64,000 nt of DNA, taken from Clostridium beijerinckii HUN142 (GTDB lineage Bacteria > Bacillota > Clostridia > Clostridiales > Clostridiaceae). Positions 13,494 through 38,101 of the stretch are shown here, piece by piece (position 1 is the first letter of the stretch; each line of letters begins with the position of its first letter). The position numbers and the translations under genes were made by a program. The stretch is taken from the NCBI RefSeq assembly GCF_000621745.1, contig NZ_JHXK01000011.1, forward strand, positions 62,001-126,000, read 5' to 3'. Under the pieces are notes generated by a model. The model saw only the letters and a list, made by a program, of their open reading frames with translations. It had not been told where the DNA came from and searched no databases.

Positions 13494-13790
13494 TTAAAGC
13501 TTTTTCATCTTCTCCTTAATCAAGCTAAAATAACTTCCAAGCACCGCAAGAATTTTCACCACTTCATCCAGATCAAAATTCAAAGAATGTCTTTTCATTT
13601 TTAGAGCTTCCTCCAGCTTAAAAAGCATAGATACTCCTTCCTTTAATCCAAATTTATCACAACTTACTGCGAGTCTATTCACTTCTCTTAAATTGCCGTC
13701 TAAAGTTACGCTTACTCCACTTAATAAAATTCCATCCAAAAGCACCTCTATATCATCAATCACAGTTCTCAAGTCTTGATTATTTTCCAT
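13494..13790 (-). CDS. Small unknown protein closing the MoxR/VWA/SWIM operon
   Basis: A 98-aa soluble, helix-rich protein that I do not recognise. It is acidic at the N-terminus (MENNQDLRTVIDDIEVLLDG) and has amphipathic helical segments with Leu/Ile spacing (FKLEEALKMKR, LDEVVKILAVLGSYFSLIKEK). The frame is open further upstream, but the start at ATG 13790 has AAAGGATGTGATTTT before it. It lies 115 nt after the SWIM gene on the same strand and is presumably co-transcribed. An adaptor for the operon is possible but is only inference. Confidence 0.6.
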   Translation of the reverse strand: MENNQDLRTVIDDIEVLLDGILLSGVSVTLDGNLREVNRLAVSCDKFGLKEGVSMLFKLEEALKMKRHSLNFDLDEVVKILAVLGSYFSLIKEKMKKL

Positions 13791-13906
13791 AAAATCACAT
13801 CCTTTATGTAATTGAATTAAACAAACTACTGTATACATATTGATAGCTATATTACGCTGTCTTTTCTGTAAGATAAGAAGATAAGGCAAGTTAAATCAAT
13901 TACCAT

Positions 13907-15673
13907 CTATATAGTCAAATTCATTAACGTACCATTTTTATAATAAGCTGTTATAGGGATTGCTGTAAGTCCAGTTTCGTTACTGAATACTTTAGTCAAG
14001 AGCATAAATGGATAGTTTTTCATTCTTTCCATTCTCTCCAGCTTTTCTATAAGCTTCTTATTATGACTAGAATACTTGACTTCAATGGTTACAGATTCTT
14101 CTTTTTCATCATATAATTGCATTTTGAAGAGCTGCTGTATTTTATCAAAGCTGCTTTCTCCAAACTTCAATGGCTTTATAAGAAATAAATTATAATTTTC
14201 TTCTCTTTCATTAAAATATAATCCTGAGTTCTTAGAAACTGTTAAAAATAAATCCTTCCAAGAATTAAAGGTCTTGTCCTTAAGATAAATACTTTGAATA
14301 TCTGTGGTACCTACAATTTCCCCTTTGCTATTTTCACTAGAAGATAACCTAAAATCTCCATTTATCTTTCCATTAACCAGCTTTATTCTAGATTTAGAGA
14401 AGCTTTCTATATCAGAAGCAATTCCCCAAGGACAGCTTTCTCTGCTACAGCTGTTTTTATTATTGTAGGATGAATTTCTAGATATAGTGTAAGTAAACCA
14501 TTTGTTAAAGCCTTCTACTGTAAAGTAAAATGTAGTTCCTTCATAGCCTGACTCTGTTATCCACTTGCTAGATCCTACTGCTGTAAGTTCTATAGGAGGA
14601 ATTTCATAATAAGAACTTTTATGCTCTCCCATTAATTCTACTAAAGTTTTTTCATCACTGCAGTTTTCAATAACCATGGTCAAAACATAAATGCTTTGAA
14701 GCAAATACCTAAAACTTTCTACAGAAAAAGAAGCATTTTTATTAATATATAATCTGAGTTTTCCTTGAAGTGCTCTTATCTTCTTCTCAATACTTGGAAT
14801 ATCACTATTATGACAAATAATTGATACCTGTTCCAGCTTATCTAAAAAACTTTCAGGAATTCTTGCAAGACCTGTAAAATATATTTCATCTATAGTTTTT
14901 CTAACTTCCTTTATACATCTTTCTAAAGTTTCTTTACTTACAATTTTGTCCTTAGCAATTAAAGAAGTAACCTCTTCTTTCTTTAACATGCCTTTGTAAA
15001 GACCATAGTGAATTACTGCCTCTGCCTTATGTCTACAAAGTGCTTTACTCTTGCAGCTGCATAAAGCATTATTGACTATACTGCTATCCTTTATGGATAT
15101 ATATTTCTTTTTTTCGCCATTCACAGAAATAAACTTTACAATTGCTTCTCCTGCAAATTCTACTTCAAGAAGAGCTTCTTCTTTTATATCTGCTTTTAAT
15201 CCAAACTCCATTCTTTTAACAATATTTCCAAATTCTCTGTCACCCAAAGCAGTTTTTATGCTCTTTAAGGTTATATTTAAAAGTTCTGAATAATCTGGAC
15301 TGAATTCCTTCTGTTGTTTTGATATGTCCCTTTCTTCACTAGAATCCCCATTTGAAGAAGAGGACTCTCCAAAGATTTCTTCCATATGATTTTTTATATA
15401 TAAATAACTCATTACAGCATGCTTACAAATATTCCTTGATGGACAGCTGCACTTAAAGGCTTGGATATCTTCATTTACGCTACATGAATTTCCATCTGGC
15501 AGTTCACATTTTACAGATGCTTCTTCCACTGTAATTTTAACACCAGCATCAGAGTTTAAGTCCTTTGACGCTCTATTAAATATACCTTTATTAGTAACTC
15601 CAATAAGATACTCATCATTAATAGAAAGAATATAAGATTTTAACTTACTTAAGAAATTATCTTTGCTATCCAT
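13907..15673 (-). CDS. SWIM zinc-finger protein with two CxC-CxH motifs (YehQ-like)
   Basis: A 588-aa cytoplasmic protein. Two SWIM-type metal sites are visible: C75-S-C77...C83-K-H85 (AFKCSCPSRNICKH) and C205-S-C207...C213-R-H215 (ALCSCKSKALCRH). SWIM fingers bind DNA or proteins. The remaining 370 residues have no motif I recognise. Its start ATG 15673 sits behind GGAGGGTTAGCTAA and overlaps the end of the VWA gene by 25 nt, so the two are translationally coupled. Together with the upstream AAA+ ATPase, DUF5682 and VWA genes this matches the E. coli yehL-yehM-yehP-yehQ set, where YehQ is the SWIM protein. The molecular role is unknown. Confidence 0.88.
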   Translation of the reverse strand: MDSKDNFLSKLKSYILSINDEYLIGVTNKGIFNRASKDLNSDAGVKITVEEASVKCELPDGNSCSVNEDIQAFKCSCPSRNICKHAVMSYLYIKNHMEEIFGESSSSNGDSSEERDISKQQKEFSPDYSELLNITLKSIKTALGDREFGNIVKRMEFGLKADIKEEALLEVEFAGEAIVKFISVNGEKKKYISIKDSSIVNNALCSCKSKALCRHKAEAVIHYGLYKGMLKKEEVTSLIAKDKIVSKETLERCIKEVRKTIDEIYFTGLARIPESFLDKLEQVSIICHNSDIPSIEKKIRALQGKLRLYINKNASFSVESFRYLLQSIYVLTMVIENCSDEKTLVELMGEHKSSYYEIPPIELTAVGSSKWITESGYEGTTFYFTVEGFNKWFTYTISRNSSYNNKNSCSRESCPWGIASDIESFSKSRIKLVNGKINGDFRLSSSENSKGEIVGTTDIQSIYLKDKTFNSWKDLFLTVSKNSGLYFNEREENYNLFLIKPLKFGESSFDKIQQLFKMQLYDEKEESVTIEVKYSSHNKKLIEKLERMERMKNYPFMLLTKVFSNETGLTAIPITAYYKNGTLMNLTI

Positions 15674-16779
15674 TTAGCTAACCCTCCTGGCGTCATCGCT
15701 GCAACTTCTGCTCCAAGTGCAGTCATTTTACCTGCAGCCTTCTTATCATAAAAGCCATTCGCTTTATCATCCAAAGCTGTAAGAATTATAAGCTTAGCTC
15801 CAGTTTCAATTATTGCCTTAGCCCTTGCATACATTATGTTGTAATTATACCCATCATAAAGGTCTGTCACCATTACTACCATAGTTCTTAAAGGACTTTC
15901 TATCAATTTTTCTGCATAACCTAAAGCCCTTCCTATATTAGTCCCTCCTCCCAGCTGAACACTCATAAGTGTTTGAACTGCATCATCCACATAAGAAGTT
16001 AAGTCTACTATTTCCGTGTCAAAAATAAAAAGGCTGGTTTTTAACATAGGGAGCTTTGAAAATATGCCTGCCATTATAGCACTGTGAATGACAGAAGAGA
16101 GCATACTGCCACTTTCATCTACAGCAATTACTATGTTCCAAGTATTATATTTTCTTACTCTACCATAAAAATAAACTTTGTCTACAATTATTCTCTCTTC
16201 TTCTTTATCATAATTTTTTAAATTAGCTCTTATCGTTCTTTTAAAATCAATGTTTCTAGCAGACTTCACAGCACTTCTTTTGTTTCTGTCCACTTTTCCT
16301 ATAATAGTAAGCTTTACTTCATTTTCTAGACTTTTAGTTATTTCATCGACTACCTTTTTAACTATTTTTCTTGCTGTATCTAAAACATCTCCCTTCATTA
16401 AATGTTTCATCTGCAATATATTTTTTAAAAGCTCTGCATTAGGCTCCATGGCCTCTAGCACTTTTTTATCTGTTAAAAGCTCCTTCATGTTATATTTTTC
16501 TAGAGCATGCTTTTCTAATATTTCCACTGTTTCTTTAGGAAATAAGGTTCTAACCTTTGTTATCCAAGAAGGCACTGTAAACTTAGAACTTCCTCTTCCT
16601 CCTCTTGGGTCATCTACTCTTATTCCTCTTTCTTCATCATAATCCCTATCATATAAGAACTCTAGCAAATCACTAAGCTCTGAGTAATTGCTGCTATCTT
16701 CCGAAAATCCTATTCTATCCTCTGCAAACTTTCCAAGTACTAATCGCCATCTATTTAAACCAATTAAATCTTCATTCAT
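15649..16779 (-). CDS. VWA-domain protein (YehP-like), MIDAS intact
   Basis: A 376-aa cytoplasmic protein. The N-terminal 200 residues are a helical region unique to this family; the von Willebrand A domain covers about 212-376. The metal-ion dependent adhesion site is intact: DESGS (221-225), the T of LGGGTNIGRAL (about 276-286), and D in VTDLYDG (about 307-313). Such proteins partner MoxR-type AAA+ ATPases as substrate adaptors in metal insertion or complex remodelling. Start ATG 16779 has AAGGGTAAGGT before it. It overlaps the SWIM gene. About 140 nt separates it from the DUF5682 gene upstream, without an obvious terminator. Confidence 0.9.
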   Translation of the reverse strand: MNEDLIGLNRWRLVLGKFAEDRIGFSEDSSNYSELSDLLEFLYDRDYDEERGIRVDDPRGGRGSSKFTVPSWITKVRTLFPKETVEILEKHALEKYNMKELLTDKKVLEAMEPNAELLKNILQMKHLMKGDVLDTARKIVKKVVDEITKSLENEVKLTIIGKVDRNKRSAVKSARNIDFKRTIRANLKNYDKEEERIIVDKVYFYGRVRKYNTWNIVIAVDESGSMLSSVIHSAIMAGIFSKLPMLKTSLFIFDTEIVDLTSYVDDAVQTLMSVQLGGGTNIGRALGYAEKLIESPLRTMVVMVTDLYDGYNYNIMYARAKAIIETGAKLIILTALDDKANGFYDKKAAGKMTALGAEVAAMTPGGLAKWIAKIIS

Positions 16780-16916
16780 ACCTTACCCTTTCTCTTTTAA
16801 AGTAAAACTTACACTTAGCAAATATTATTTCACCTCATATAACTGTTAACTCAAACCAATTCCCACAATATAAGTTATTTAATCTGCACTTTATCTAGAA
16901 TCTTACACCTGGTATT

Positions 16917-19325
16917 TTATGGATGTATATTCCACTTCTTCAAAATCTCCATTGCATATTTATCTAATGATACTGCTAGGTTTATATCCTCTTCTTTTAA
17001 TGCCTTTTCATATAGAATATTATCATCATCAGTGCTGTACACTTTTGCTGCCTCTTTAGCAATGCTGTCAATTTCAAAAGGATTAAAGAATGTAAAACTA
17101 AATCTCAAATCTGGAAGAAGCGCCATGAAGTGTTCCTCTTCTATGTTTCTCATAAAGCTATCTATTCCATTAAGTAAATCCTCTTCAATAAGTAATAAGT
17201 CTTTAGCTGTAGAAAATAGTCCTTTTAAAAAGCTTCCTGACTTCATAAGTTTTTCCCCAGTTCCATAAAGATACTGCATTGCCTTATCTGTTACTTCCTT
17301 AGAATTAATAGAATTTAATCCGTATAATATACCTAATGCTGCTCCTTCAACTGCGCTGTTTAGATTCTTCTTATTAATAAGCAGTTTTAAGCTGTCGATT
17401 AAAGTTTCACTATCAAAATCAGCTTTATTAGAAATATGATAAATATCTTTTAGCTTAGATATAACTTCATTTTCATTGTCATAATCTACAGTGCTTAAAC
17501 TTGTTATTTGAGACACAGCTTTATTATAAGCAGCATTAAAGAATTCTTTAAGCTTTCCATTTATATTAATATTAAGCAAATCCTCTGAATTACATAAAAA
17601 ATTTAGATTGTAACAAGAATTTGTAACTGATACAAAATCTTCATCGCCATTTAAGATCTCACCAAAGGATGGAAGAAGTCCCTGAAAACTGCTTTCAACG
17701 CCCATAAGTGCAGCTTCTATTAAAAGCAGTGAAGCTTCTCCTGATACATTTTCACAAGAGATAAACCTCTTTGCAAGTATAGAACTTGCTGCCTCCTTTA
17801 AGCTCCCACCATGCACTGAAAGTTCTATAAGTGTAGCTTGAAGTTTAGTAGTCCATTTATACTTCCATACTTCTCTTACTAAATTGGTATTTTTCCTTTT
17901 AATAAAATCAGGTCCCTTTTCCATGAAGCAAAAGCTAGTATTTAAAAACTTCATTATATGAAAAAACTTACTTTGCTCCCTATGCTTTTTACTCTTATAA
18001 ATACTTAATGGCACTTCATTTTCTAAATTAGTGTTTTTTATGTTAAACTTTCTGCACAATTCATTAAAATCTTGTACTATAGGTGGCACTTCTGCTAATG
18101 CGCATAACTTACCTATTTTATTTCCTGTAAGCAGGTCTCTCAAATATTTTAAAGAAACCTGTGCCTCTGCATCCATTTCACCTTTTACAAAAGAAGATGT
18201 TATGCCATCCTTAAGCTCATAAACTCCACATTCATACTTGTTCCTTAGAGATTTAAGTCCCTTTGCCATATTAAAGACTTCAATTTCATCTGCTGTAGAA
18301 AGATTTCCGTGATTTTTTCTTATAAGTTTCCCGCAGTGTACAATATAATTAAGAACAGCATCTTCATAAGGCTTATCCACCTTTTTCTGAATATTTTCAA
18401 AAACTCGTTGATAAAAAGCAGGATGAGGCATTCCGCTGGCATAACCATTTAATTGATCACTTTCCTCAAAAGAATAAGCCATGGCATATACTCCAGTGTC
18501 CTCTTGAGCTATATTATGAAGAGTTATTTCCTCATTAGATTCGAGTCCATCAATAAGGGCAGAAGTATGAAAGCCTCCGCTTACTACAAGAACTTTATTG
18601 TATTTTTTAACAGCTTCTCTTATTTTAATACTCATAAATGTTTCTCTAGAAAGACAGCCATCCTCTTTAAGCATTTGTTCATTATAGCCTGCTCTAGAAA
18701 GATAACAGGAAAATATCATATTTTCTATGAACTTCTCAGTACTTATCTTAAGTCCATCTATTTCGAATAATTTTTCCCAAAGCTCATTATAATTTCTGCA
18801 GCCTTCCTTTTCACAAAGGGTTTTAATAAAAATACTTTCCTTCATTAAATAATCATCATTATAGGTATTTTTCTCCTGAGCTTTTCCCATGATCTCTAGT
18901 TTTTTGCTGTTTATAAGTATTTCAGAATATGATAAGTCTATAAACTCACAGGCAATATTTCTCTTTTTTCCTTCTCTTAATGCTAAAAGCTCTGGAGAAA
19001 AATCTAAAAAGGGATAATAGCACCTATACTTTTCTTTGTTTTCTTCTATAAGCGCATTTCTATCATAGTAACTATAGTAAATACATACAGGGGCTTTCGT
19101 TTCCTCATGAGCTATATACTTTATTACTTTATTAGCCTCTGCAGGCCCTTCAATTAATATAATTTCAGGATTATAACTCTCTATTACCTTTTTCAGATGA
19201 AAGCTACAGGCAGGACTATGGTGTCTTACTGGGAAAAACATTACTTTGCTTTCTAAATTGTAAGCTTTTTTCACATAGTTTTTTATTTTATTATCTATAT
19301 TCTGATTGTCTATATTTTTACCCAT
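16917..19325 (-). CDS. DUF5682 family protein (YehM-like)
   Basis: An 802-residue cytoplasmic protein. The N-terminal hallmark FFPVRHHSPACSFHLKKVI and LIEGPAEANKVI (about 30-65) defines the DUF5682 family; further blocks EFIDLSY, VVSGGFHTSALIDGL and AYSFEESDQLNGYASGMPHPAFYQ also look family-like. The RHHSP plus EGP pattern and later conserved GGFH recall TraB/Tiki-like enzyme folds, but that is only my inference. ATG 19325 with GGTGGAG is chosen over the longer open frame, which would overlap the ATPase gene. It sits between the MoxR ATPase and VWA genes, as yehM does in E. coli. Confidence 0.85.
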   Translation of the reverse strand: MGKNIDNQNIDNKIKNYVKKAYNLESKVMFFPVRHHSPACSFHLKKVIESYNPEIILIEGPAEANKVIKYIAHEETKAPVCIYYSYYDRNALIEENKEKYRCYYPFLDFSPELLALREGKKRNIACEFIDLSYSEILINSKKLEIMGKAQEKNTYNDDYLMKESIFIKTLCEKEGCRNYNELWEKLFEIDGLKISTEKFIENMIFSCYLSRAGYNEQMLKEDGCLSRETFMSIKIREAVKKYNKVLVVSGGFHTSALIDGLESNEEITLHNIAQEDTGVYAMAYSFEESDQLNGYASGMPHPAFYQRVFENIQKKVDKPYEDAVLNYIVHCGKLIRKNHGNLSTADEIEVFNMAKGLKSLRNKYECGVYELKDGITSSFVKGEMDAEAQVSLKYLRDLLTGNKIGKLCALAEVPPIVQDFNELCRKFNIKNTNLENEVPLSIYKSKKHREQSKFFHIMKFLNTSFCFMEKGPDFIKRKNTNLVREVWKYKWTTKLQATLIELSVHGGSLKEAASSILAKRFISCENVSGEASLLLIEAALMGVESSFQGLLPSFGEILNGDEDFVSVTNSCYNLNFLCNSEDLLNININGKLKEFFNAAYNKAVSQITSLSTVDYDNENEVISKLKDIYHISNKADFDSETLIDSLKLLINKKNLNSAVEGAALGILYGLNSINSKEVTDKAMQYLYGTGEKLMKSGSFLKGLFSTAKDLLLIEEDLLNGIDSFMRNIEEEHFMALLPDLRFSFTFFNPFEIDSIAKEAAKVYSTDDDNILYEKALKEEDINLAVSLDKYAMEILKKWNIHP

Positions 19326-19338
19326 GCTAGCTCCACCC

Positions 19339-20454
19339 TTATTTAATCCACTTTTTAGCTTCATAGAAATCCTTCCAGTTACCACCCATTTTTGCACTTT
19401 TACCTTTAACTACAATGTTAAAATAACTCCTTAGCTTATCCACATCTTCACGGCTTTCCTTAAGGACAGAACCTAGTATGTTTTGTACCATAGTACTCAT
19501 ATCAATTTTAGAATCTCCATAATAAAAGCTGCTCATAAGAGTTTGATAATAAACTGACACTGCCTCAGCTGTACTCATTACTGCAGAAGGCTTGTCAATT
19601 CTACTACCTTCAGAAGAGATTCCTTCCCTTAATTCATGGAAGGTTGTAGCAAGAATTTCCGCTGCATCTCTATCCACTTCCATATCAATATTTGAATTCT
19701 TAATAAGCTTCTCAACTTCTCCTTCTATAATCTTAGCTTCTAAAGAAACATCGCTTATTGGGAATACAGTTTCAAAATTAAATCTTCTCTTTAAGGCACT
19801 ACTCATTTCATTAACTCCACGGTCTCTAGTATTAGCAGTAGCTATAACATTGAAACCAGGAGATGCACAAAGCAGTCCTTCTTCTCCAAACTCTGGTATA
19901 TTTAAAACTTTATCACTAAGTATACTGATTAAACTATCTTGCACCTCTGCTGGGCATCTAGTGATTTCCTCAAATCTAGTTATAATTCCCTTTTTCATGC
20001 CTACATACAAAGGAGAAGGAACTAATGCTTCTTTAACTGGTCCTTTAGCTAAAAGCAAAGCATAATTCCAAGTATACTTAATCATGTCCTCTGTAGTTCC
20101 TGCTGTTCCCTGTATAGTATTTGTGCTACATCCACAAATAGCAGCCGATAAAAGCTCACTTAACATGGTTTTAGCTGTTCCCGGCTCTCCAACCAGCATA
20201 AGTCCCCTATTTCCAGCTAAAGTTATAATACATCTCTCAATAAGAGTATCATCTCCATAAAATTTCTTTGTAATATTAACATTCTTTCTTTTTAGCTTTA
20301 AAGGCTTACTTCTTCCTAAAATAAAAGTCCTTACAGCCTTAGGAGATAATCTCCAGTTTTCTGGTTTAGGCCCGTCATCGTTAGCTTCTAATGCAGCTAA
20401 TTCATCTGCATATAATATTTCAACGGTAGGTTTTAATGCTTTTATTTCACTCAT
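19339..20454 (-). CDS. MoxR-type AAA+ ATPase (YehL-like)
   Basis: A 371-aa AAA+ ATPase. Walker A is GEPGTAKT (89-96); the Walker B position reads ITRFEEI (158-164), sensor 1 is ATANTRDRG (205-213), and LKRRF (221-225) supplies the arginine finger, all as in MoxR/RavA/CbbQ-type ATPases. A helical lid follows. MoxR ATPases form hexamers and act with VWA proteins to remodel or load metal into client proteins; here the VWA partner is two genes downstream. No ribosome binding site is visible before ATG 20454, only a TATAAT-like stretch, so its expression may depend on a hairpin at 20463-20505 and on upstream translation. It overlaps nothing downstream (14 nt gap to DUF5682). Confidence 0.92.
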   Translation of the reverse strand: MSEIKALKPTVEILYADELAALEANDDGPKPENWRLSPKAVRTFILGRSKPLKLKRKNVNITKKFYGDDTLIERCIITLAGNRGLMLVGEPGTAKTMLSELLSAAICGCSTNTIQGTAGTTEDMIKYTWNYALLLAKGPVKEALVPSPLYVGMKKGIITRFEEITRCPAEVQDSLISILSDKVLNIPEFGEEGLLCASPGFNVIATANTRDRGVNEMSSALKRRFNFETVFPISDVSLEAKIIEGEVEKLIKNSNIDMEVDRDAAEILATTFHELREGISSEGSRIDKPSAVMSTAEAVSVYYQTLMSSFYYGDSKIDMSTMVQNILGSVLKESREDVDKLRSYFNIVVKGKSAKMGGNWKDFYEAKKWIK

Positions 20455-20462: not shown

Positions 20463-20505
20463 TTTAGTGAGAGAGTATACTAAAAATTATCAAGCCCTCA
20501 CTAAA
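20463..20505 (-). promoter_or_regulatory. Hairpin between the SUKH-like gene and the MoxR gene
   Basis: TTTAGTGAG (20463-20471) pairs perfectly with CTCACTAAA (20497-20505). The stem spans the stop codon of the upstream gene and ends 9 nt before the MoxR start. There is no T run after it on the minus strand, so it looks more like an attenuator or translation-control structure than a terminator. Confidence 0.45.
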
Positions 20506-21244
20506 TCCTCCCTTCTTTATTTTCAAACTTAAATATTTCATATCTGGGATACCCAATAGCCACTTTTAATTTATCGTTAAATAATTTTTTAATTAGTTCT
20601 ATAGAAGATGCATAAACAAGTTTATTTTCTGTCCCATCTTCATATCTTTGTATTGTTAGAAAAAATTCATCATTTTTATCCTTTAAATAAGTACTACAGC
20701 TGTCACAAGCTTCATCTATCTGTATCAAAGAATATTCTTTGTTAGTCTTCCACTCATTTAAATCATGGTCTTCAAAACTTGCACTAACCCATTGTGGCTG
20801 CTTTTCTAAAAAATAGTTTTTAACTGCATCTTTTTCAATAAATTTTTCAATTGAATCTGCCAATAAATATGGTTTGTTGTCATTATACTCTTTGCCATAA
20901 ATCTTTCCTTTTGAATCAATTACCATGTATATTGATTCATTATAGTGAAAAGTTGCACAAGTAAAATAATATTCTTCATCAATTTCCTCTGCACCTACAT
21001 AATAATCATAATCCATTGTACGTGGATTAAATTGAGAGCCTATCATATCTAAAGAAAATCCTTCAAAGGATTTTCCTAATTTATATGACATGCCAGCATA
21101 AAGCTTTTGAAATCTTATTACACTATCATACAATGGATATCCAATATCTTTTAGAACCTTAATTATAACTTCCTCATCTTGCGGTACCTTATGCCTTTTT
21201 GATTTATTAAGCATATTAATTGCTCTTGCACTTAAATTATACAT
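20501..21244 (-). CDS. SUKH (SMI1/KNR4)-like protein
   Basis: A 247-aa soluble protein. The N-terminal half looks like a SUKH domain: a helical start (IIKVLKDIGYPLYDSVIRFQKLYAGM), then the sheet with YYFTCATFHYNESIYMVIDSKGKIYG and the closing ADSIEKFIEKDA helix, which is the usual SUKH end (ID..G.iy....i..s...Fl). SUKH proteins are best known as immunity proteins against contact-dependent or polymorphic nuclease toxins. The C-terminal 100 residues are unassigned. Start ATG 21244 follows GAGGTGGCGAA and overlaps the end of the preceding small gene by 13 nt. Family call is by eye. Confidence 0.6.
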   Translation of the reverse strand: MYNLSARAINMLNKSKRHKVPQDEEVIIKVLKDIGYPLYDSVIRFQKLYAGMSYKLGKSFEGFSLDMIGSQFNPRTMDYDYYVGAEEIDEEYYFTCATFHYNESIYMVIDSKGKIYGKEYNDNKPYLLADSIEKFIEKDAVKNYFLEKQPQWVSASFEDHDLNEWKTNKEYSLIQIDEACDSCSTYLKDKNDEFFLTIQRYEDGTENKLVYASSIELIKKLFNDKLKVAIGYPRYEIFKFENKEGRI

Positions 21245-21438
21245 TTCGCCACCTCATTTTTAAGCCCTCCTTTTGTACGTAGAAGAGCTGCATGAGGAAG
21301 ATGCGAAAACTGAGATATTTGCAATAATTCAGCGTCTACTTCTTCTAAACTATCAATACCACTTTCTATTGAGACAATTCCCATTAACTTTAAAATTGTA
21401 TTATGAAAATTTTCTATTTCTTTTGGATAGTTACTCAT
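21232..21438 (-). CDS. Small unknown protein coupled to the SUKH-like gene
   Basis: A 68-aa protein with a good ribosome binding site (AGGGTGATAAT) before ATG 21438 and a 13-nt overlap with the next gene. I do not recognise it. The last third (LPHAALLRTKGGLKNEVAKC) ends abruptly and may be a truncated version of a longer domain. Confidence 0.5.
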   Translation of the reverse strand: MSNYPKEIENFHNTILKLMGIVSIESGIDSLEEVDAELLQISQFSHLPHAALLRTKGGLKNEVAKCII

Positions 21439-23708: not shown

Positions 23709-23876
23709 AGTTTTCCCTCCTAAATTCAATCTAATTATATCAACCACTTATTTGCTATTTCTTCAAACCAATCTACAAAATTATTTCATCCATTTATTAT
23801 ATAAAAGGTATATTCAAAACATTGTACATAGCAAGTAACCTAAAACCGCATGTTTCCCTCGTCAACATATATTCTT

Positions 23877-24680
23877 TTATCCTGCTATATCAGCTGATTC
23901 AAAACTTCCGTCGATATTTCCACAAACTATGATACAGTGCCCTGCAAACAAGTCTCCATCATAAAAGAAAATCTCAAACTCACCTTTAGGATAAACGCTT
24001 ATAGTATCTAATTCTATGGATTTAATAAACATTTCTTCTGAAACTTCTTCAATTTCTGCTTCTTCATCAATCCAATCATTAGCAAGTTCTAAAAGTTCAC
24101 TTGCAGCATAAGCTCTAACTTTAACACTCCAACTCTTTTGATTTTGGAAAAGTTCATGAGCAGTTTTAAGAGAATCTTTCATTTCTTCTTTATTATCTAG
24201 ATCAAAATACAATCGTCCTTTTTCCTCTGCCCATGTGATATCAGTTTGAAAAGTCTTAATTCCCTTATCTAATTCAAATTTTCCAAGGATCTCATCTTCA
24301 TAAAATACTGGCTTTAGTTCTTCAACTAATATGTCTTGAAGTTCTTCATCCTTATAGTCTGCATCTATGAGTTCTAATAGCATGAAGGCTCTTTCGCCTT
24401 TTCTTAGCTTAAGTTTAATTATTGAATTTCCTTTAATAGTCTTTTGCCATTCCTTTAAGCCTTCGTTATCAGTAAGCCACGATAAATTAATCTCCTCTTT
24501 TACTGATGGCTCATTGCTGTTTAAATCCTTCCAAGCAATAAGGTTTATAGACGCTCTCCATAATTCGTCTTTCCCTCCCTTTCCTGCACCAACTCCACTA
24601 GAAGCTGTTATAGCAGCTGCCTCGAATACTTCATCTGAAAAATTTTCATCAAATTTTTTTATCTCACTATTTTTACTCAT
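23877..24680 (-). CDS. DUF2262 family protein
   Basis: A 267-aa soluble acidic protein. The C-terminal half matches DUF2262: LGKFELDKGIKTFQTDITW (about 130-150), the helix ending ASELLELANDWIDEE (about 185-200), and the closing FFYDGDLFAGHCIIVCGNIDG with SADIAG. The N-terminal 120 residues (with VLLELIDADYKDEELQDIL) are also part of this family in many proteins. DUF2262 genes often appear in immunity-type gene clusters, function unknown. ATG 24680 follows AGGAGGAATTC. No obvious partner; within the minus-strand island. Confidence 0.8.
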   Translation of the reverse strand: MSKNSEIKKFDENFSDEVFEAAAITASSGVGAGKGGKDELWRASINLIAWKDLNSNEPSVKEEINLSWLTDNEGLKEWQKTIKGNSIIKLKLRKGERAFMLLELIDADYKDEELQDILVEELKPVFYEDEILGKFELDKGIKTFQTDITWAEEKGRLYFDLDNKEEMKDSLKTAHELFQNQKSWSVKVRAYAASELLELANDWIDEEAEIEEVSEEMFIKSIELDTISVYPKGEFEIFFYDGDLFAGHCIIVCGNIDGSFESADIAG

Positions 24681-29601: not shown

Positions 29602-29774
29602 TTTACTTAACACTCCTCATCTACCTATACTTCATTAATAATTTTTATACCTTCTATCTTCATCTTACTTTCCCTACTTAACAATTATGTATTGTCTATA
29701 TCTTATTTTTTGAGATTCTACTGAAATATTGATAATTATGATTAAAATCAGTTCAGTATTTTAGGAAATATCTT

Positions 29775-29973: not shown

Positions 29974-30100
29974 TTATATATTCTCACCGTATAAATCTCT
30001 AATTTTCCTTATTTTAAAAGCCTTCTCTGCAATTTATCTTGCACTTAGCTCATGACCATATTCCACAACAACATACCAATATATTAAATCTGAAATATTA
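29974..30100 (-). pseudogene. Decayed C-terminal gene fragment
   Basis: Frame reads SDLIYWYVVVEYGHELSAR, an in-frame TAA, then IAEKAFKIRKIRDLYGENI and a stop. It is directly downstream of the 145-aa gene and has no start codon. Likely the end of a gene lost by recombination. Confidence 0.4.
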
Positions 30101-30819: not shown

Positions 30820-32031
30820 TTAAATAAGGTTCTTTATTACTACTGCCGCTCTATTTCTATGTTTACTATCAATTATTCCATCAAAATATAATGAATAACT
30901 ACTACCACAAGCCTTCAATTTACGAAGTATTACATTATTCATATTAAGTGTAATCTTTCTGCCTGTAACTTGATCAATATAACTCTTTTTATCTATATGC
31001 TGTAACCAACATTCAAGAAGCTCTCCAGATTTAACTACAAGCCAGCCGTTACCTCCTTTTATGGGTTCATCATCGCTGCCATATGTAAAAGTTAATGCAT
31101 ATGTATCGTTATCTAACTTCACACTTTCCATATAATATATAGAACATAATTCTGTAAATTCAAATAACTTCTTTTCTTCTATCCGTTCACCGTCAATGCC
31201 ATAAACTACATAGAATATTTCGCTGGGTCTTTCTACATGAAATATGTTTCCGCCATTTGCTGTTACCTCAACTGTCTCATAATTTTTCCAATTGATAACA
31301 GGACTATTCTTTTCAAAATATGCATCAAAAAACATACCTTCTACATAAACTTTACGTTCCTTAATAGATACTCCTTTATCATCAAGCAAGCGATGCAATA
31401 TCACATTTTCATCAATTGTTGAAAAAGCGTGTATTCCTTCTTCGTTATACAAGCATCTACTTACTAATGGCTCTTCTATTTTCACACGCTTTACTGACTG
31501 GAAGTGCTTATCCTTAGAAAATTTGTATTCTCCTAGCTTTGTAGTTTTTTTATTAAAAGTTCCATCAGTATAAGATAATATTTTATCTCCATCTCTAAAA
31601 ATATGTTCAGCTACTGATGCCATTGGTTTACAATCCTCGATATCCTTTCTATCTCCTATAGGAAGACATACAACCCTATTTAAAGAAGTTTTCGAATATC
31701 CAATTACACACCAAATTTCATCATTTGGCCATTGGAACAGATCATATGGGACTCCTTCAGATTCGCAGTAACATGTGGTTTGTAAAGTTTCCACATCCAT
31801 TTTAATATAGCAAAAGTTATCTTTATATTTCTCTAGCTGATCTAAATGTGATGCAATATTAGATACATCTTTATAATTATTTATACTAAAGAATATTTGA
31901 TTCTTTGATGGTAAATAGTACATATGCCCTGTGCTTAGTCGGAAATCAGCATCAATATATATACCATAAAACTCATTGATATGATAATTGCTGATTTTAA
32001 AAATATTGTTATCTATAATTAAATCTTCCAC
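30820..32031 (-). CDS. Unknown 403-aa protein, copy 2 of a duplicated gene
   Basis: Paralogue of the gene at 22494-23708, roughly 85% identical by eye along the whole length, same beta-rich pattern (EFYGIYIDADFRLSTG, FTYGSDDEPIKGGNGWLV). Start is GTG 32031 behind AGGAGGGAAGATT. No signal peptide or known domain. The substitutions are spread evenly and the frame is clean, so both copies may be functional. It is followed by the damaged small gene copy 2. Confidence 0.7.
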   Translation of the reverse strand: MEDLIIDNNIFKISNYHINEFYGIYIDADFRLSTGHMYYLPSKNQIFFSINNYKDVSNIASHLDQLEKYKDNFCYIKMDVETLQTTCYCESEGVPYDLFQWPNDEIWCVIGYSKTSLNRVVCLPIGDRKDIEDCKPMASVAEHIFRDGDKILSYTDGTFNKKTTKLGEYKFSKDKHFQSVKRVKIEEPLVSRCLYNEEGIHAFSTIDENVILHRLLDDKGVSIKERKVYVEGMFFDAYFEKNSPVINWKNYETVEVTANGGNIFHVERPSEIFYVVYGIDGERIEEKKLFEFTELCSIYYMESVKLDNDTYALTFTYGSDDEPIKGGNGWLVVKSGELLECWLQHIDKKSYIDQVTGRKITLNMNNVILRKLKACGSSYSLYFDGIIDSKHRNRAAVVIKNLI

Positions 32032-32165: not shown

Positions 32166-32687
32166 CTACCCTAATGTTTTAATAATTTCCTCGATTGATA
32201 TAGGCATATAATTATTTGCATCAACACCTACATCGTATCTCTTTACTTCATTTTTTAGCATTTCAAGATTATATGTAATATCTGAATGTATATGTCCATG
32301 TAAATGAATAGAACCATGCCCTTTTTTGTTCCATTCCATTATAGGATAATGAAACAGTACAAATTTATAATTTCTATATTCAATTTCATGATAATCTTTA
32401 ATCCATTGAAATAAGTCTTTATTAAAAGCATTATCGTCAATAAAATTATCATGATTTCCTTTTATTAAGTATTTAGTACCACATAATAATTGTAAATAAT
32501 GATTGGCAATTATGCCGCCTTTCATAGTAAAATCCCCTAAAATATAAACTTCATCATTAGGTCTTATAACATTATTCCAATTTTTTATTAATCTTCCATT
32601 CATTTCATCTACCGTATGAAATGGTCTGTTTGTGTGCTTGATGATTTTTTCATGATTAAAATGTAAATCTGATGTAAAATAAATCAT
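32166..32687 (-). CDS. Calcineurin-like metallophosphoesterase
   Basis: A 173-aa cytoplasmic phosphoesterase. Metal-binding motifs are intact: DLHFNHEKII (D7, H9), GDFTMKGG, GNHDN (about 72-76), HYP and HGHIHSD (about 126-132). Residue counts are for the chosen start, ATG 32687 (MIYFTSD), seven codons into the open frame, because AGGAGAG precedes it. Single-domain members of this size are common near phage and toxin/immunity loci; the substrate is unknown. Confidence 0.85.
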   Translation of the reverse strand: MIYFTSDLHFNHEKIIKHTNRPFHTVDEMNGRLIKNWNNVIRPNDEVYILGDFTMKGGIIANHYLQLLCGTKYLIKGNHDNFIDDNAFNKDLFQWIKDYHEIEYRNYKFVLFHYPIMEWNKKGHGSIHLHGHIHSDITYNLEMLKNEVKRYDVGVDANNYMPISIEEIIKTLG

Positions 32688-32755
32688 ATTTCTCTCCTGA
32701 TCCGCCAATATACTATTTTAATTTACCACTCTAACATTAATATATTAGGCAATTT

Positions 32756-33301
32756 CTACATAGTTTCATAATCAATCCAGGTTTCATCTATAAAACCACA
32801 ATTTGTACACCTTGTGCTTATTGTAATCCAGCTAAAAGCATTTACCCATTCCTCTTCACTAAACTCTGTATCTTCACAATTTTCTAAGAAATCTTCTTTA
32901 CCTCCAGATGAAATGGCTACTGATACTTCATGGTGCTCGTCATTACATTTTGGGCATCTCCATAATTTTTTAAATTTTTCCATTGGAAAATCTTCATATC
33001 CCTTAAATCCAGATTTGTCACCACAAACGAATCCATTCCAACCATGAAGATTATCATCAAATATTAAATGTACTTTCCCACATTTTTTACATTTGTATTC
33101 TATTGCTAAATAAAAAACGCCTTCATATTCACATAATGTAATAATTTCGTTCTCATATGCTCCAAGGTAACTTAAAGAAAATTCTTTGTTTCCGCATGTA
33201 CAAGCAATATCTCCTGCCACAAAAAATTCATCATTCTTGCCTCCTTTAGGAATTAATATATTTTTAAGATGTGTCGGTATTGGTAAAATGCTTTTTTTCA
33301 T
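32756..33301 (-). CDS. Unknown protein with four CxxC-type zinc-ribbon knuckles
   Basis: A 181-aa soluble protein. Four knuckles are visible: CTCG (34-37), CKKCG (about 71-75), CPKCN (about 116-119) and CTNCG (about 164-168), which could build two zinc ribbons. Between them are strand-rich segments and an acidic loop (NCEDTEFSEEEW). I do not recognise the family. It belongs to the immunity-like island. Confidence 0.65.
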   Translation of the reverse strand: MKKSILPIPTHLKNILIPKGGKNDEFFVAGDIACTCGNKEFSLSYLGAYENEIITLCEYEGVFYLAIEYKCKKCGKVHLIFDDNLHGWNGFVCGDKSGFKGYEDFPMEKFKKLWRCPKCNDEHHEVSVAISSGGKEDFLENCEDTEFSEEEWVNAFSWITISTRCTNCGFIDETWIDYETM

Positions 33302-33303
33302 TA

Positions 33304-33448: not shown

Positions 33449-33449
33449 T

Positions 33450-34148
33450 TTACAAGTACCCAAGTTCATAATAATTATTAATTTGTGGATATTTTAATAG
33501 TATATATTTGATTAGCTCATATGAATTTTCATCATACTCTGATTTCTCATGTTCAAGCAAATATCTCCCATCAAGCAATTGAAAGACTTCAATTGCTGTA
33601 ATTTCTTTGCATATAGCGTTTTCTAACAAATATTTAATGGGTTTAAGATCATCATCGTAATTAAATCCTAAAATATAACCATGAATAAGTTCTGAAGTAT
33701 TCAATTTATCAAGCTTACTAAAACATTCTTCATCATATAATAAATCATCAATTAATTGTTTCTCCTCTTCATAGAGTCTAAGACGAATGGAATTATGTGT
33801 AGCTATGAGTAAATCTGCTATATTACAATCATTCCTTGCAAAAAACCACGGTGTATCAATGATTCCAATGTCTGAATTAAGTTCAAATCCATAGTTTATC
33901 AAATACTTAATGACATCAACATCTTTAAATTTAATTGCTTTTATCATAGCATTTTGTCCAGATTTATCCTTTAAATAGGGATTGGCTCCTTTATCTATCA
34001 TATCTTTAAATATATCTAGTGGTAATTTATTAATAATTAAATTATGTAGTATTGTTCTTCCAAACTTATCTGTTTCATTAATATTTTCACTCGTATAATA
34101 TTTAATAATTTCATCATATTGTTTTTCTTTAATCAATTTTTGAATCAT
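33450..34148 (-). CDS. Ankyrin-repeat protein
   Basis: A 232-residue protein. Residues about 25-105 contain ankyrin repeats with the TDKFGRTILHNLIINK, GANPYLKDKSGQNAMIKAIKFKDVDVIKYLINYG patterns; the C-terminal half is helical and divergent. Single ankyrin proteins are known immunity factors in polyimmunity clusters. The start at ATG 34148 (MIQKLIKEK) has AGAGGGAATTAT before it. Confidence 0.8.
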   Translation of the reverse strand: MIQKLIKEKQYDEIIKYYTSENINETDKFGRTILHNLIINKLPLDIFKDMIDKGANPYLKDKSGQNAMIKAIKFKDVDVIKYLINYGFELNSDIGIIDTPWFFARNDCNIADLLIATHNSIRLRLYEEEKQLIDDLLYDEECFSKLDKLNTSELIHGYILGFNYDDDLKPIKYLLENAICKEITAIEVFQLLDGRYLLEHEKSEYDENSYELIKYILLKYPQINNYYELGYL

Positions 34149-34176
34149 ATAATTCCCTCTTTCACTAATGCGTACT

Positions 34177-34350
34177 TTACTCAATTTCATTATCTTCTAT
34201 ATTTTTGCCACATTCTAAAAGGCCTCTAAAAATGAAATCTTCCATATTTTTAGATAATACTTTCATATATTCAGCATCGTGATACACAATTACAATTGGT
34301 ATTTTAATTCTGCTCCATTGATTTCTAATAAAAATTCTTTATATATATTG
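34177..34350 (-). pseudogene. Decayed SUKH-like fragment
   Basis: YKEFLLEINGAELK in one frame and, shifted, IPIVIVYHDAEYMKVLSKN, followed by FIFRGLLECGKNIEDNEIE and a stop. The EFLLEINGAE segment is the common SMI1/KNR4 (SUKH) motif. The beginning is missing. Confidence 0.45.
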
Positions 34351-34397
34351 GGAATGTTGTATTATTCTCTATTAATTATTGCAACATCAATTATTCT

Positions 34398-34430: not shown

Positions 34431-34449
34431 AAGTTAAAATTTTTGAAAA

Positions 34450-34700
34450 TTATACAACTTGCTCCAGTATGCTTGGATCTTTTATTTTACTATCTTCTGC
34501 TAAAATAGCAATTTTAGATATTATTTCCGCACTCTTTGGATCACTGTCTATAAGTGGTAAGAATAATTTTCCTCTTTGTCCAGAATGAATAGGAATTATG
34601 TTAATAGCACCGCTTCCCATCTTATGGACAACACCACTTCCTCTTTTGTTATAAAATTTTTACGTGAACCTGCCTGCTTTATATTAAAATATAATCTCAT
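34450..34700 (-). pseudogene. Small gene coupled to DUF4132 paralogue II, frameshifted
   Basis: ATG 34700 lies 5 nt after the DUF4132 stop and encodes MRLYFNIKQAGSRKNFITK. In another frame the sequence continues RGSGVVHKMGSGAINIIPIH, LFLPLIDSDPKSAEIISKIA and ILEQVV to a stop at 34450. Adding one A at the AAAA run (about 34638-34645) would join them into one 83-aa protein. The C-terminal part is not a repeat of known immunity families. Tight coupling suggests that it belongs to the DUF4132 machine, but no counterpart follows paralogue I. Confidence 0.6.
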
Positions 34701-34705
34701 GATTT

Positions 34706-37700
34706 TTACCTATCCATTTTCCAATTAGCTGTAAAACCAGTCTTAGCTTCTAACGTTCTGTCCACATCATAAAGTATCTCGCTAAAGAATCTTTTGGGAA
34801 CCTTCATTGGTACAATTGTATTCTCATCAGTTACTTCATCATAAACATAGCTTCCTCTTTCGACTGTACTTGCTTTGTAGAAAACAAGTTCATAAATAGT
34901 AGTTTCTTCATCTTCATAACCAACTCCAAGATACTCAAATTGAAGCTCTGCACCTATTCCTATTTTTTCATCTTCCTTATAAAACTGATAATAGCATCCT
35001 GCATCTTGTATTGAACCTCTATACCATCCCATTTTAGTAAGCTTACCTACAAGTGAAAGCCCATTAATCTTAGTTCCAGCAAAACGTTCTATATTCTTCA
35101 TTTCCTTTTCTTCTTCAGTCACAGTATAAACTTTTCTTTGAAGCTGTGGGAAAGGCTGTACTATTTCATAATCTTCAAATTGCTGTTTCCAAGTTTCTAA
35201 TATTTCTGAATCAAGTTCTAAAGGGTGTACAAGTCCTATAAAAGAATTGTCTATAAGATTATATTCTTCCTCATCAACTGTATTAAAACTACCATCTTCC
35301 ATATATCTAAAGGTATCCTTTAGTTCTCCATCTTCATAAATACCCCATACCAAACCAAGAGAAAAATTATGCATTATAGGGTTTTCTACAAAAAGTTTTT
35401 CCCAATCTTTTTTCTTCCATAGTCTGTTTACTGCAAGAGCCATTTCTAGTCTTAAGCTTTGGGCTGAAACAATAGTTTTCATCTGTTTCTTTAAAGCTTT
35501 GAATTCATTTGCTGCCTCTTTAGCTTTTAGCTCATCATCAGATTTATTTGGTTTTGGCATAGTCTTAATTATTTTTCCAGTATTATCTGTAATCTTCAAA
35601 GAGAAATCTAAGCCTAAACTTACAGTAAAACTTCTGCTTCCAAAATCAAATACTCTTTCTCCCCTTTTGTCAAAACTTAAATCTGGTATTATTTTATCTG
35701 CTAAATCATCTTCAGTTAAATTAAACATCTTTGCTGCTGACACAAAAGCTTCTGCTGCTGCTTTTTTAATCTGTTTATGCTTAAATTTTCTAGCTATACT
35801 ATCTATTATTATCAAGGCATCATCACTGCCATTTAAAGCTAAAGCTTTTACCGCCTCACAAGCGATAGCTCCTCTTGAAGTTTTTGACCAAACATCTATT
35901 TGAGTTTTTAATGTGTTTACTACATTGAAGCCTCCAATTGCTGAAACTAGAGCTAGTACCCATTTTTGTTTTGTATCTGCACCATTATTAATCCAAAGGT
36001 TTAGAATTTCACTTCCAAGGGCATCTAAATCAGCCTTATTGCACATTTCTATTACCTTTTCTGCTATAAGATTTCGTTCTACCACATTTTCAAGAGAGTA
36101 TTTACTTATAATATAAGTTATTACATCCTTTGATAAAACATTTCCATCTTCATACTTTACGTCTGTGAAACCTTCTACAACCATCCATTCTGGTGCAGTA
36201 TACGAAGTTTTCTTGAGCCTCTCACTGCAGTAACTACTTATACTATTAGCACTTTCAAGTATTTTGGCGTCTAAATAATCTGCATTTACAATGTTTAAAA
36301 GTAAAATCTTAACTTTTTCATTTTTTTCTTTCTCCGCAAATTTTTCGATTTCTGCTTTAAATTCTCTCATATCAAAATTCATTAATATTTTGGCAGCAAT
36401 TTCTCGGGTTGCTGTCTTTTTGCTTGCTAATATCCATAAAACTTGCTTTTTGCATCCTTCATAAGAACTAAGTAGTCCTGCAATTTTATCTCTAATAAAC
36501 TTTGAATTATCTGATAAACTTCTAACTAAAATCTCAGAATATTTTTCCTTATTAACTTTAAATAAAGCCTCAAGTACAACTTCTTTTGACTCACCTTTTA
36601 AATCCTCTGCAATATTTATAATCTCAGTATTTTCTTCATGACATAACATTTTTAAATATTCCTTGGCTTTTGGATTTAAAACTGCATCAGCAACTAGAAT
36701 TAAGTGCTTTTCATTTATCCCTTCACTTAAAAGTTTTTTTGCAAAACTTATGTAACTTATATCATTATATCCAGTTACATATGATATAACTGAAGCTACT
36801 AAGGCATATTCTCCAATATTAACTGATATATATATAAATCTATGTATAATATCTCTAATTTCATCTATAGAATACATTAATTGAAAACAGAGACCATGAT
36901 ATCGCCATATATAACCACTATGTCCATCAAATTTCTCAGTCCTATGAAAAAAGTCCTCTAATAAATCTTCATTTTTGCCTTCTAATACATACTCTAGTAT
37001 TTTAGCTTTTTCTTTTCTCTCTAAAATTTCTAATGTTCTATCAGTACATATGAAAAGATTCAAAATTATTCCTATAACATTTTTTAAGTTTTCAAGATCT
37101 GCTTCTTCCTTAGAGTAGCTATAAATAAAATAAGCAAGTAAGAATACTTCTAAATCATGAAAATTATCTTGACCAAGCTTCTTTTTCTTTAAAGCTTCAA
37201 AAGTTTCTCTAAAAACTAAAGGTATTTCTTTTATCCTTTCTTCTATCTCTTCACGTATCTTCTTATTTTCTTCTCTAACATATATACTTATTAATCTATG
37301 TACATATAGCTTTTTATCAATATTAAATCTATTTGCAATATCATAACTTTGTGCTGTTTTATCATAAAAACAAATAAATTCTACTAATTCATAAAATAAC
37401 ATTCTTCTATTAGTGCTTTTACTAATGATATTGCTGACAACTTCCTTTAAATCCTCATTTTTATCGCAAGCATAAGAGAAAAAATCAATTAGAGCTGTTT
37501 GCTTATCTTTTAAATATTTATTTATATTATCTGCATCTTCAAAATTATGTTTTATAAATTCTTCTTCATTCTCTGGTAAACTACAGCCATTTTTAATTGC
37601 TAAGGCTGCTAATGACAATTTAGTAAACTCGTCTTCTGCTTCTAAAAAAGTTTTTGATAATATTTCCTTGTCTTCTGATACCATTTCTTCAACGATTGTA

Positions 37701-38101
37701 ATTACTTCTATTACATTTCTACGATAAAGACAATTTTTTATAAGCCATAATAGAAGCTTTTCTTTATGTTCCATAGGTTTTAAATAATTTACAGTTTTAG
37801 ATACAGAATAAAATCTTCCATTTATTATTTGAAAGAAGCTTTCTCCTCCTATAGCAAAGAATACATTTATTATTCTATTAAAAATTTCTTCTTTCTCTAT
37901 AAAACCGTCCATTAGCTTCCAAAAATCTGCTCTTATGTTATAGTGACTTCTAAGAGCCTTTTCCATATTATATTTATGAAATTCTTCTAAATTTAAAGAA
38001 TTTTCTTCACTTTCAATATAAGCTTTAATCTTTATAATTTCTTCATCTTTTATAGTACAGTTACAAAGCTTAACCTTTAGTAAATTTAATAATTCATCCA
38101 T
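34706..38101 (-). CDS. DUF4132 protein, paralogue II (YehI-like)
   Basis: A 1131-aa soluble protein, paralogous to 26095-29601. The last 350 residues share DUF4132 blocks: NPIMHNFSLGLVWGIYEDGE, SFNTVDEEEYNLIDNSFIGL, VHPLELDSEILETWKQQFEDYE, ERFAGTKINGLSLVGKLTKMG, and KRFFSEILYDVDRTL at the end. HEAT-like helical units occur around 540-690. The N-terminal third differs almost completely from paralogue I. Start ATG 38101 is preceded by GGGGGAAAAATAA. It is the first gene of the 24.6-kb minus-strand run; nothing lies upstream on that strand for at least 450 nt, so the run probably starts here. Confidence 0.85.
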   Translation of the reverse strand: MDELLNLLKVKLCNCTIKDEEIIKIKAYIESEENSLNLEEFHKYNMEKALRSHYNIRADFWKLMDGFIEKEEIFNRIINVFFAIGGESFFQIINGRFYSVSKTVNYLKPMEHKEKLLLWLIKNCLYRRNVIEVITIVEEMVSEDKEILSKTFLEAEDEFTKLSLAALAIKNGCSLPENEEEFIKHNFEDADNINKYLKDKQTALIDFFSYACDKNEDLKEVVSNIISKSTNRRMLFYELVEFICFYDKTAQSYDIANRFNIDKKLYVHRLISIYVREENKKIREEIEERIKEIPLVFRETFEALKKKKLGQDNFHDLEVFLLAYFIYSYSKEEADLENLKNVIGIILNLFICTDRTLEILERKEKAKILEYVLEGKNEDLLEDFFHRTEKFDGHSGYIWRYHGLCFQLMYSIDEIRDIIHRFIYISVNIGEYALVASVISYVTGYNDISYISFAKKLLSEGINEKHLILVADAVLNPKAKEYLKMLCHEENTEIINIAEDLKGESKEVVLEALFKVNKEKYSEILVRSLSDNSKFIRDKIAGLLSSYEGCKKQVLWILASKKTATREIAAKILMNFDMREFKAEIEKFAEKEKNEKVKILLLNIVNADYLDAKILESANSISSYCSERLKKTSYTAPEWMVVEGFTDVKYEDGNVLSKDVITYIISKYSLENVVERNLIAEKVIEMCNKADLDALGSEILNLWINNGADTKQKWVLALVSAIGGFNVVNTLKTQIDVWSKTSRGAIACEAVKALALNGSDDALIIIDSIARKFKHKQIKKAAAEAFVSAAKMFNLTEDDLADKIIPDLSFDKRGERVFDFGSRSFTVSLGLDFSLKITDNTGKIIKTMPKPNKSDDELKAKEAANEFKALKKQMKTIVSAQSLRLEMALAVNRLWKKKDWEKLFVENPIMHNFSLGLVWGIYEDGELKDTFRYMEDGSFNTVDEEEYNLIDNSFIGLVHPLELDSEILETWKQQFEDYEIVQPFPQLQRKVYTVTEEEKEMKNIERFAGTKINGLSLVGKLTKMGWYRGSIQDAGCYYQFYKEDEKIGIGAELQFEYLGVGYEDEETTIYELVFYKASTVERGSYVYDEVTDENTIVPMKVPKRFFSEILYDVDRTLEAKTGFTANWKMDR

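Follow-up and report, generated by a model that had tools for sequence, protein, structure and literature searches.

Two kinds of described system, cited here from excerpts of the articles, come close to the locus analyzed in this work, which occupies positions 13494-38101 of a 64,000-nucleotide stretch of the Clostridium beijerinckii HUN142 genome (hereafter the window). All named genes of this locus lie on the minus strand, and they include genes for a MoxR ATPase, a DUF5682 protein, a VWA protein, a SWIM protein, and two DUF4132 proteins (open reading frames [ORFs] and Pfam), with an island of immunity-like genes set among them. Heterogeneous polyimmunity loci (Zhang et al., 2012, PMC3482391) consist, like this island, of small genes from unrelated families in one orientation with mostly short gaps; in both, the content differs between close relatives. 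Inside the island no toxin-size ORF was seen, although small toxins may be present. Unlike those loci, the array in the window is anchored on DUF4132 and embedded in a yeh-type operon. Several of its cargo families are not named in the excerpts of that article, which make no mention of DUF1963 or DUF2262, nor of MoxR or WGR.

The second kind of system pairs MoxR ATPases with VWA proteins. In E. coli, ViaA is such a VWA protein. To our knowledge, RavA-ViaA belongs to a different subfamily and has different partners, with no DUF5682, SWIM, or DUF4132 protein among them. RavA-ViaA is described as a MoxR ATPase with its cofactor (PMC3893208), and other MoxR-VWA systems are treated in PMC10910872, PMC7159879, and PMC7824862. 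Among these, the MoxR-vWA ternary conflict systems (Kaur et al., 2020, PMC7159879) also combine MoxR and VWA with repeat-scaffold proteins. The MoxR protein of the window scored 22.4 bits against bpMoxR, below the Pfam cut-off of 27, and the excerpts of this source mention neither YehL nor SUKH nor SUFU.

The gene order of the window matches that of E. coli K-12, namely yehF/yehH (yehH being a broken DUF4132 gene), yehI, yehK, yehL, yehM, yehP, and yehQ. Identities were 48% between MoxR and YehL, 42% between VWA and YehP, 25% between DUF5682 and YehM, and 30-32% between DUF4132 and YehI (C-terminal part), while the similarity of the SWIM protein to YehQ was weak (23-25% across two short stretches). 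A preliminary description of the window had proposed this likeness to the yeh families, and it is borne out, with SWIM as its weakest member. Pfam and motifs also agree with the gene set it had listed on one strand: by motifs read from the sequence, Walker A (GEPGTAKT) is intact in the MoxR ATPase, the MIDAS (DESGS...GGGT...TD) is intact in the VWA protein, and SWIM motifs lie at residues 75 and 205 of the SWIM protein. Unlike the window, K-12 and five other E. coli regions hold no island.

Linkage of the island to DUF4132

The gene set has a conserved order with intergenic slots, the content of these slots turns over, and in Clostridiaceae such arrays are tightly linked to DUF4132. We located five families only in those 26 genomes of the order that have DUF4132 and counted a match as near when it fell within 25 kb of a DUF4132 gene. 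All 11 DUF2262 matches were near (at most 0.17 expected), as were 16 of 18 for DUF1963 (at most 0.33), 6 of 7 for DUF4303 (at most 0.12), 4 of 8 for SUFU (at most 0.08), and 19 of 77 for SUKH-1 (at most 1.1), the last coming from 6 of the 17 genomes that have any SUKH-1. Genome sizes were rounded for the expected numbers, and contig ends were disregarded. We picked DUF4303 and DUF1963 after seeing them in islands; for both, the near-absence elsewhere in the genome is what counts. Near matches adjoin DUF4132 subfamilies a, b, L, and x in several genera. For a TetR_N control with 318 matches in 10 genomes, none lay within 25 kb among the matches listed (about half), the nearest being at about 25.5 kb as judged by eye. 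Because the enrichment is positive within the order, the link is not a chance neighborhood of one genome, and we rejected the chance-neighbor reading on these counts.

The preliminary description had expected immunity families to be enriched near the five-gene set in other genomes. This held within the order, but not for the five-gene set as such, since the link follows DUF4132. A tree of 38 DUF4132 proteins, in which the position of some long branches is uncertain, contains subfamily b (island-type), subfamily a, an island-free set-type, the x-type (short), and the L-type (long). The window's b protein falls in its own b clade, and in other clostridia most members of this clade adjoin an island. 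For C. carboxidivorans (G110), C. drakei (G111), and C. muellerianum (G113), the distance from the b-type gene and its island to DUF5682 is 67-82 kb, or the two are on separate contigs, and the MoxR set there has its own DUF4132 gene and no island. A second G104 locus likewise keeps the island apart from the machine. In G040, an island with DUF1963, DUF4303, and other genes stands beside an L-type DUF4132 gene, with no DUF5682 match. The separated islands in G110, G111, and G113, together with G040, thus identify DUF4132, not the five-gene machine, as the anchor of the island. DUF5682 is encoded in each of the nine genomes in which a b-type DUF4132 was found (G114 has it as two pieces), and the island may depend on the machine. 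A b-type gene can stand without a full island: there is none in G066 and DUF2262 alone in G020.

Island genes of the window occupy three slots, between MoxR and DUF2262, between DUF2262 and DUF4132a, and between DUF4132a and DUF4132b. Comparison with sister genomes gave three signs of turnover: the backbone is intact but has received insertions, one cargo gene occurs in duplicate, and gene fossils are present. At about 95-97% DNA identity to the window, the G020 backbone carries no island genes at this locus save DUF2262 (86% alike); the G066 backbone is 81-89% identical, and all island genes are missing there. The marginally SUKH-like gene of the window is 82% identical to its G113 counterpart, as against 76% for MoxR and 46% for DUF5682, and two further cargo genes are close to G040 genes (Table 1). 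Cargo closer than the backbone makes an exchange between genomes possible; either horizontal transfer or differential loss may account for the history of the cargo. Of 185 island ORFs, 184 lay on the same strand; outside the islands the proportion was 68 of 97 within these loci, and it was 103 of 173 in island-free loci. This contrast is partly circular in that island boundaries were drawn by eye after the maps had been seen (one of the 185, in L074, is a cut piece of DUF4132). The median gap was 70 bp among 179 gaps pooled over 17 island stretches, with crude ORF calling that took the longest non-overlapping ORF. Gaps in the window reach 607 bp and are partly filled by gene fossils.

We searched 80 of the 85 cargo cluster representatives against Pfam (five of 100-117 aa were dropped; ORFs below 90 or above 500 aa and ORF clusters 6 and 8 had been left out beforehand). 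Among the top 25 of 111 families, SUKH-1 was found in 8, SUKH_6 in 5, and SUKH_5 in 4 (these counts may share proteins), TPR_1 and GNAT in 3 each, and SUFU, DUF2262, DUF1963, Ank_2, and HD in 2 each. Recognized immunity families in the cargo are SUKH, SUFU, and ankyrin, and many other cargo genes are DUFs or enzymes. In the window itself, SUFU and ankyrin are the only clear recognized immunity families. Of the island families named earlier, SUFU, DUF2262, and ankyrin were found by Pfam and SUKH only marginally (E 0.33); a SUKH-1 search of the whole source genome gave nothing at E 0.001 or better. One non-core island ORF exceeds 500 aa (547 aa, DUF6138). No large toxin gene was seen in the islands; small toxins may be present, the top 25 of 111 Pfam families having been viewed.

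These results connect the conserved yeh-type genes with banks of immunity-like genes within a single bacterial family. They make DUF4132 a concrete candidate for testing, and DUF2262, DUF1963, and DUF4303, which in the 26 genomes searched occur nearly always close to DUF4132, become candidates for the same process. In a search of the accessible open-licence literature, with subscription papers mostly outside it, we found no report linking DUF4132 to immunity arrays.

Candidate mechanism and competing explanations

The best joint explanation, to which we give a probability of roughly one half, is a yeh-type operon whose slots are filled by a rapidly exchanged, polyimmunity-like bank, with DUF4132 as scaffold and the MoxR set for disposal. 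In this explanation, an ancient operon of two DUF4132 genes, MoxR, DUF5682, VWA, and SWIM, here with an added small gene, has taken same-strand immunity-like and protein-binding genes into its intergenic slots, with continual gain, duplication, and loss. We infer that the array serves as a heterogeneous polyimmunity bank, with proteins that would bind and capture incoming toxins and, more weakly, that the HEAT-bearing DUF4132 protein would be the scaffold for these binders and the MoxR-VWA-DUF5682-SWIM machine, shared in trans, would remodel or degrade the captured proteins, which DUF5682 possibly cleaves. The linkage to DUF4132 hints at a shared defense job against rival toxins; any functional link between island and machine is hypothetical. 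We regard as improbable a more far-reaching version, in which DUF4132 organizes an exchangeable immunity repertoire with one recombining bank per subfamily, MoxR-VWA-DUF5682 (a putative protease)-SWIM disposes of toxins in trans, and the E. coli yeh genes are the core. If that version were true, the function of the yeh genes would be to form the core of a toxin-disposal machine.

Clues to mechanism come from profile comparisons. A profile of 53 DUF4132 proteins matched alphaRep/HEAT chains at profile positions ~512-654. RHHSP, EGP, and GGFH are invariant in 40 aligned DUF5682 proteins. At E values up to 10, 14 of 40 relatives matched ChaN weakly and 9 matched TraB weakly (best ~0.01 and ~0.002, respectively), and 6 of 10 N-terminal pieces matched ChaN or TraB (best 6.9e-04), always in the C-terminal part of the profile. 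The same scan gave no match for the window's DUF5682 protein or for YehM, and among PDB sequences the DUF5682 profile found nothing below E 0.75. The putative Tiki-like hydrolase activity of DUF5682 is a lead only.

Several observations weigh against the joint explanation. The genomes compared are related (g1, g5, and g9 dominate) and their matches not independent, which makes the Poisson P values optimistic. Outside the order, in eight DUF4132-bearing genomes from a 398-genome phylum sample, there was no clear enrichment: 0 of 6 DUF1963 matches and 2 of 53 SUKH-1 matches (about 0.8 expected for SUKH-1) lay within 25 kb. Regions from these eight genomes held only scattered relatives of island genes (blastp against the 85 cluster representatives), and in the other lineages examined the machine usually stands without an island. 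The only island-like case in the 66 other loci (those besides 12 from named Clostridium strains) was L138 of Candidatus Caccousia avistercoris, where the same blastp comparison placed a DUF2262 relative and a 695-aa SUFU relative at most 10 kb from DUF4132; across the 66 loci, the eight genomes, five E. coli regions, and two plasmids, comparable islands number at most one. Pfam results for 140 of 209 eligible same-strand neighbors in the 66 loci showed transporters, ATPases, sporulation genes, and metabolic genes, with no SUKH, SUFU, DUF2262, DUF1963, or ankyrin among the commonest 25 of 177 families (the lowest with 2 members), a result that we also count in favor of the joint explanation. 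The G040 island stands beside its L-type gene with no DUF5682 match. The cargo consists only partly of named immunity families, with Endonuclease V, GNAT, alpha/beta hydrolase, MATE, and an ABC-type ATPase also present. Immunity is read from family names, and no cognate toxin was found, no systematic search having been made. Cargo identity above that of the backbone could also reflect slow evolution.

Some of these facts also suit a site of tolerated insertion, at which long, co-directional, non-essential DUF4132 genes would act as landing or recombination sites with no working relation to the cargo. The cargo is mixed and includes genes for transporters, enzymes, and an IS110 transposase; fossils and a duplicated cargo gene are present; the set occurs elsewhere without cargo; and SUKH-rich clusters without a DUF4132 match nearby exist, for example at G114:C1:4373335-4388782 (4.37-4.39 Mb) and G066:C62, perhaps as conventional polyimmunity loci. 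However, in the 26 genomes searched, hardly any DUF2262, DUF1963, or DUF4303 match lies outside DUF4132 neighborhoods, and the same is seen next to several diverged DUF4132 subfamilies in different locations, a pattern not predicted by a plain hotspot. We hold the insertion site to be a possible explanation, on the unlikely side. Protein-binding folds are abundant in the cargo, as would be expected if the island proteins (TPR, ankyrin, WD40-like, SUKH, and TYPP/DUF1963) formed an adaptor library of interchangeable substrate receptors or chaperone-like clients of the DUF4132/MoxR-VWA machine rather than providing toxin immunity. The proposal of DUF1963 (TYPP) as a chaperone-like interaction domain (PMC4275035, excerpts), the HEAT repeats in DUF4132, and the possible Tiki/TraB-like domain in DUF5682 point in the same direction. 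Such a library is nonetheless doubtful: in G040 an island accompanies the L-type DUF4132 and there is no DUF5682 match, the set without an island is the rule in other lineages examined, and the protease-like assignment comes from sub-threshold matches, of which the window's DUF5682 protein gave none.

The preliminary description had treated machine and island as one fused locus of a new kind dedicated to conflict. In its favor, the two are contiguous and co-directional in G000, G048, G114, and one G104 locus, and a consensus scan of the coding strand from 19.3 to 38.7 kb gave only two terminator-like matches, both within ORFs (the total was not above that of shuffles). Islands apart from the machine in G110, G111, G113, and the second G104 locus, and machines without an island in other lineages, show this claim to be overstated, and in its strict form we consider it very improbable.

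Distribution of the gene set and the E. coli yeh locus

DUF4132 was found in 26 of 225 genomes of the order sample, DUF5682 in 23, and both in 20; for DUF5682, we counted one place in each of the 20 DUF4132-bearing genomes and dropped three genomes without DUF4132 and three extra fragments. Among the 66 other loci, 43 had DUF4132 with at least three of the four other genes, and 32 had all four. A gene for a ~250-aa ATPase of the ABC/AAA_15 type, also present in Clostridium islands, lies upstream of MoxR in L127, L154, L161, and L169 (Clostridia bacterium). Plasmid pl1 of Iodobacter fluviatilis (L175:4961-21245) carries the order DUF4132-DUF4132-MoxR-DUF5682-VWA-SWIM near type I restriction-modification and PDDEXK nuclease genes, an instance of the set on a mobilizable plasmid. 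The set also occurs, with its genes in a different order, on an Agrobacterium vitis megaplasmid, and DUF4132 is present in two further plasmid regions where the set is not annotated. A short DUF4132 protein (1018-1020 aa) is encoded next to a DUF1963-domain protein of ~810 aa in L087, L088, and L096 (Oceanirhabdus genomes and G157). At L070:6360-10064 (C. tagluense), a 478-aa ORF that is probably an inserted element apparently interrupts the VWA gene, leaving parts of 281 and 105 aa.

The yehI-yehL stretch was matched in 5,215 of 5,426 E. coli genomes, and in 3,981 of these one place covered at least 80% of it. Although the other 1,234 matching genomes had no such place, we rejected E. coli as a second case of filled slots, because five regions picked from a spread list showed a ~1.2 kb unannotated gap (four) or IS1 with yehL-yehQ missing (one), and no immunity genes. 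The yehK-yehL gap is 0.3 kb in K-12 (L031:12290-12597), against the ~1.2 kb in the four regions that retain yehL (L191-L194). These regions also have one or two extra DUF4132 genes before yehI, several of them marked as pseudogenes. In excerpts of the literature, a transposon is reported to disrupt the DUF4132 region of E. coli ST131, and in Deinococcus, whose WGR and DUF4132 proteins are named together, the DUF4132 and WGR genes are reported to be induced. The DUF4132 proteins of the window have no WGR domain according to Pfam.

Genes and gene fossils of the window

The features of the window are listed in Table 1.

Table 1. Genes, remnants, and fossils of the locus in window coordinates.
Positions	Strand	Feature	Evidence and remarks
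13494..13889	-	Small conserved gene 3' of SWIM in clostridia	Cluster 5; true start probably inside the ORF
13907..15673	-	SWIM zinc-finger protein, YehQ-like, two CxCx6CxH sites	Pfam PF04434 2.1e-05
15649..16779	-	VWA protein (VWA_CoxE), YehP-like	Pfam 2.9e-46
16917..19397	-	DUF5682 protein, YehM-like; N-terminal part possibly Tiki/TraB/ChaN-like	Pfam 6.5e-93
19339..20454	-	MoxR-family AAA+ ATPase, YehL-like	AAA_5 8.2e-36
20501..21244	-	247-aa protein, marginally SUKH-like	SUKH-1 E 0.33; 82% identical to C. muellerianum (G113) island gene
21250..21438	-	Fossil, first 63 codons of island gene (cluster 75)	87% aa to 161-aa gene in L073
21852..22346	-	DUF6097 protein	Pfam 2.6e-47; 86% aa to G040 island gene
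22494..23747	-	417-aa protein, duplicate of 30820-32031	No family assigned
23877..24680	-	DUF7021 + DUF2262 protein	Pfam 3e-32 and 7.7e-45
24713..24925	-	Remnant of island gene, cluster 31	blastx 54% over 71 aa
24918..25034	-	Remnant of island gene, cluster 74	blastx 92% over 39 aa
25042..25323	-	DUF6892 protein, shortened (93 aa vs 140 aa in L059, L072)	PF21832 1.1e-09, profile 3-69 of 136
25381..26040	-	SUFU-family protein	PF05076 6.2e-32
26095..29613	-	DUF4132 protein, subfamily a, 1172 aa, HEAT repeats	PF13569 1.9e-53; HEAT_2 3.5e-08
29992..30099	-	Fossil, last 36 codons of island gene (cluster 17)	81% aa
30101..30577	-	158-aa orphan	No family match; absent from 11 related genome regions compared
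30820..32031	-	403-aa protein, duplicate of 22494-23747	No family at E 0.01 or better
32166..32708	-	Calcineurin-like phosphoesterase	PF00149 E 7.1e-4, just under cut-off; 94% to G040 island gene (tblastn)
32756..33301	-	Small zinc-ribbon-like protein	Weak zinc-ribbon matches only
33450..34190	-	Ankyrin-repeat protein, weak C-terminal DUF4274	Ank_2 5.5e-16; DUF4274 1.2e-05, under its cut-off
34444..34700	-	Fossil: start of usual upstream neighbor of L-type DUF4132 (34630-34700), then L-type DUF4132 tail	DNA 90% and 92% alike in two adjoining stretches
34706..38101	-	DUF4132 protein, island-type subfamily b, 1131 aa, DUF4132 C-terminal	PF13569 1.9e-53

Several of these had been overlooked in the preliminary description, namely the DUF6097, DUF6892, phosphoesterase, and zinc-ribbon genes, the near-duplicate pair of 417 and 403 aa, the small gene after SWIM, and the fossils. 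The near-duplicates share 89.3% DNA identity over 1212 bp. ORF cluster 5, to which the small gene belongs, has 14 members across 14 loci, the window among them. Within the fossil next to the b-type DUF4132 gene, positions 34453-34641 correspond to the last 63 codons of an L-type DUF4132 gene (92% aa identity to residues 1572-1634 of the L090 protein and to G040). It is preceded by the start of the usual upstream neighbor. The window thus held a third DUF4132 locus in the past or underwent recombination with one.

Searches of ten window proteins against NCBIfam gave no family at the cut-off, with matches below it for the phosphoesterase and zinc-ribbon proteins only. PADLOC anti-phage models at E 0.01 gave, for the same number of window proteins, only a weak HEAT-ARM match (7.1e-05) in one DUF4132 protein. 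Downstream of the operon there is a palindromic stretch at 13276-13456, and elsewhere in the window a direct repeat of ~145 bp, 90% alike, occurs at 44145-44288 and 46376-46520.

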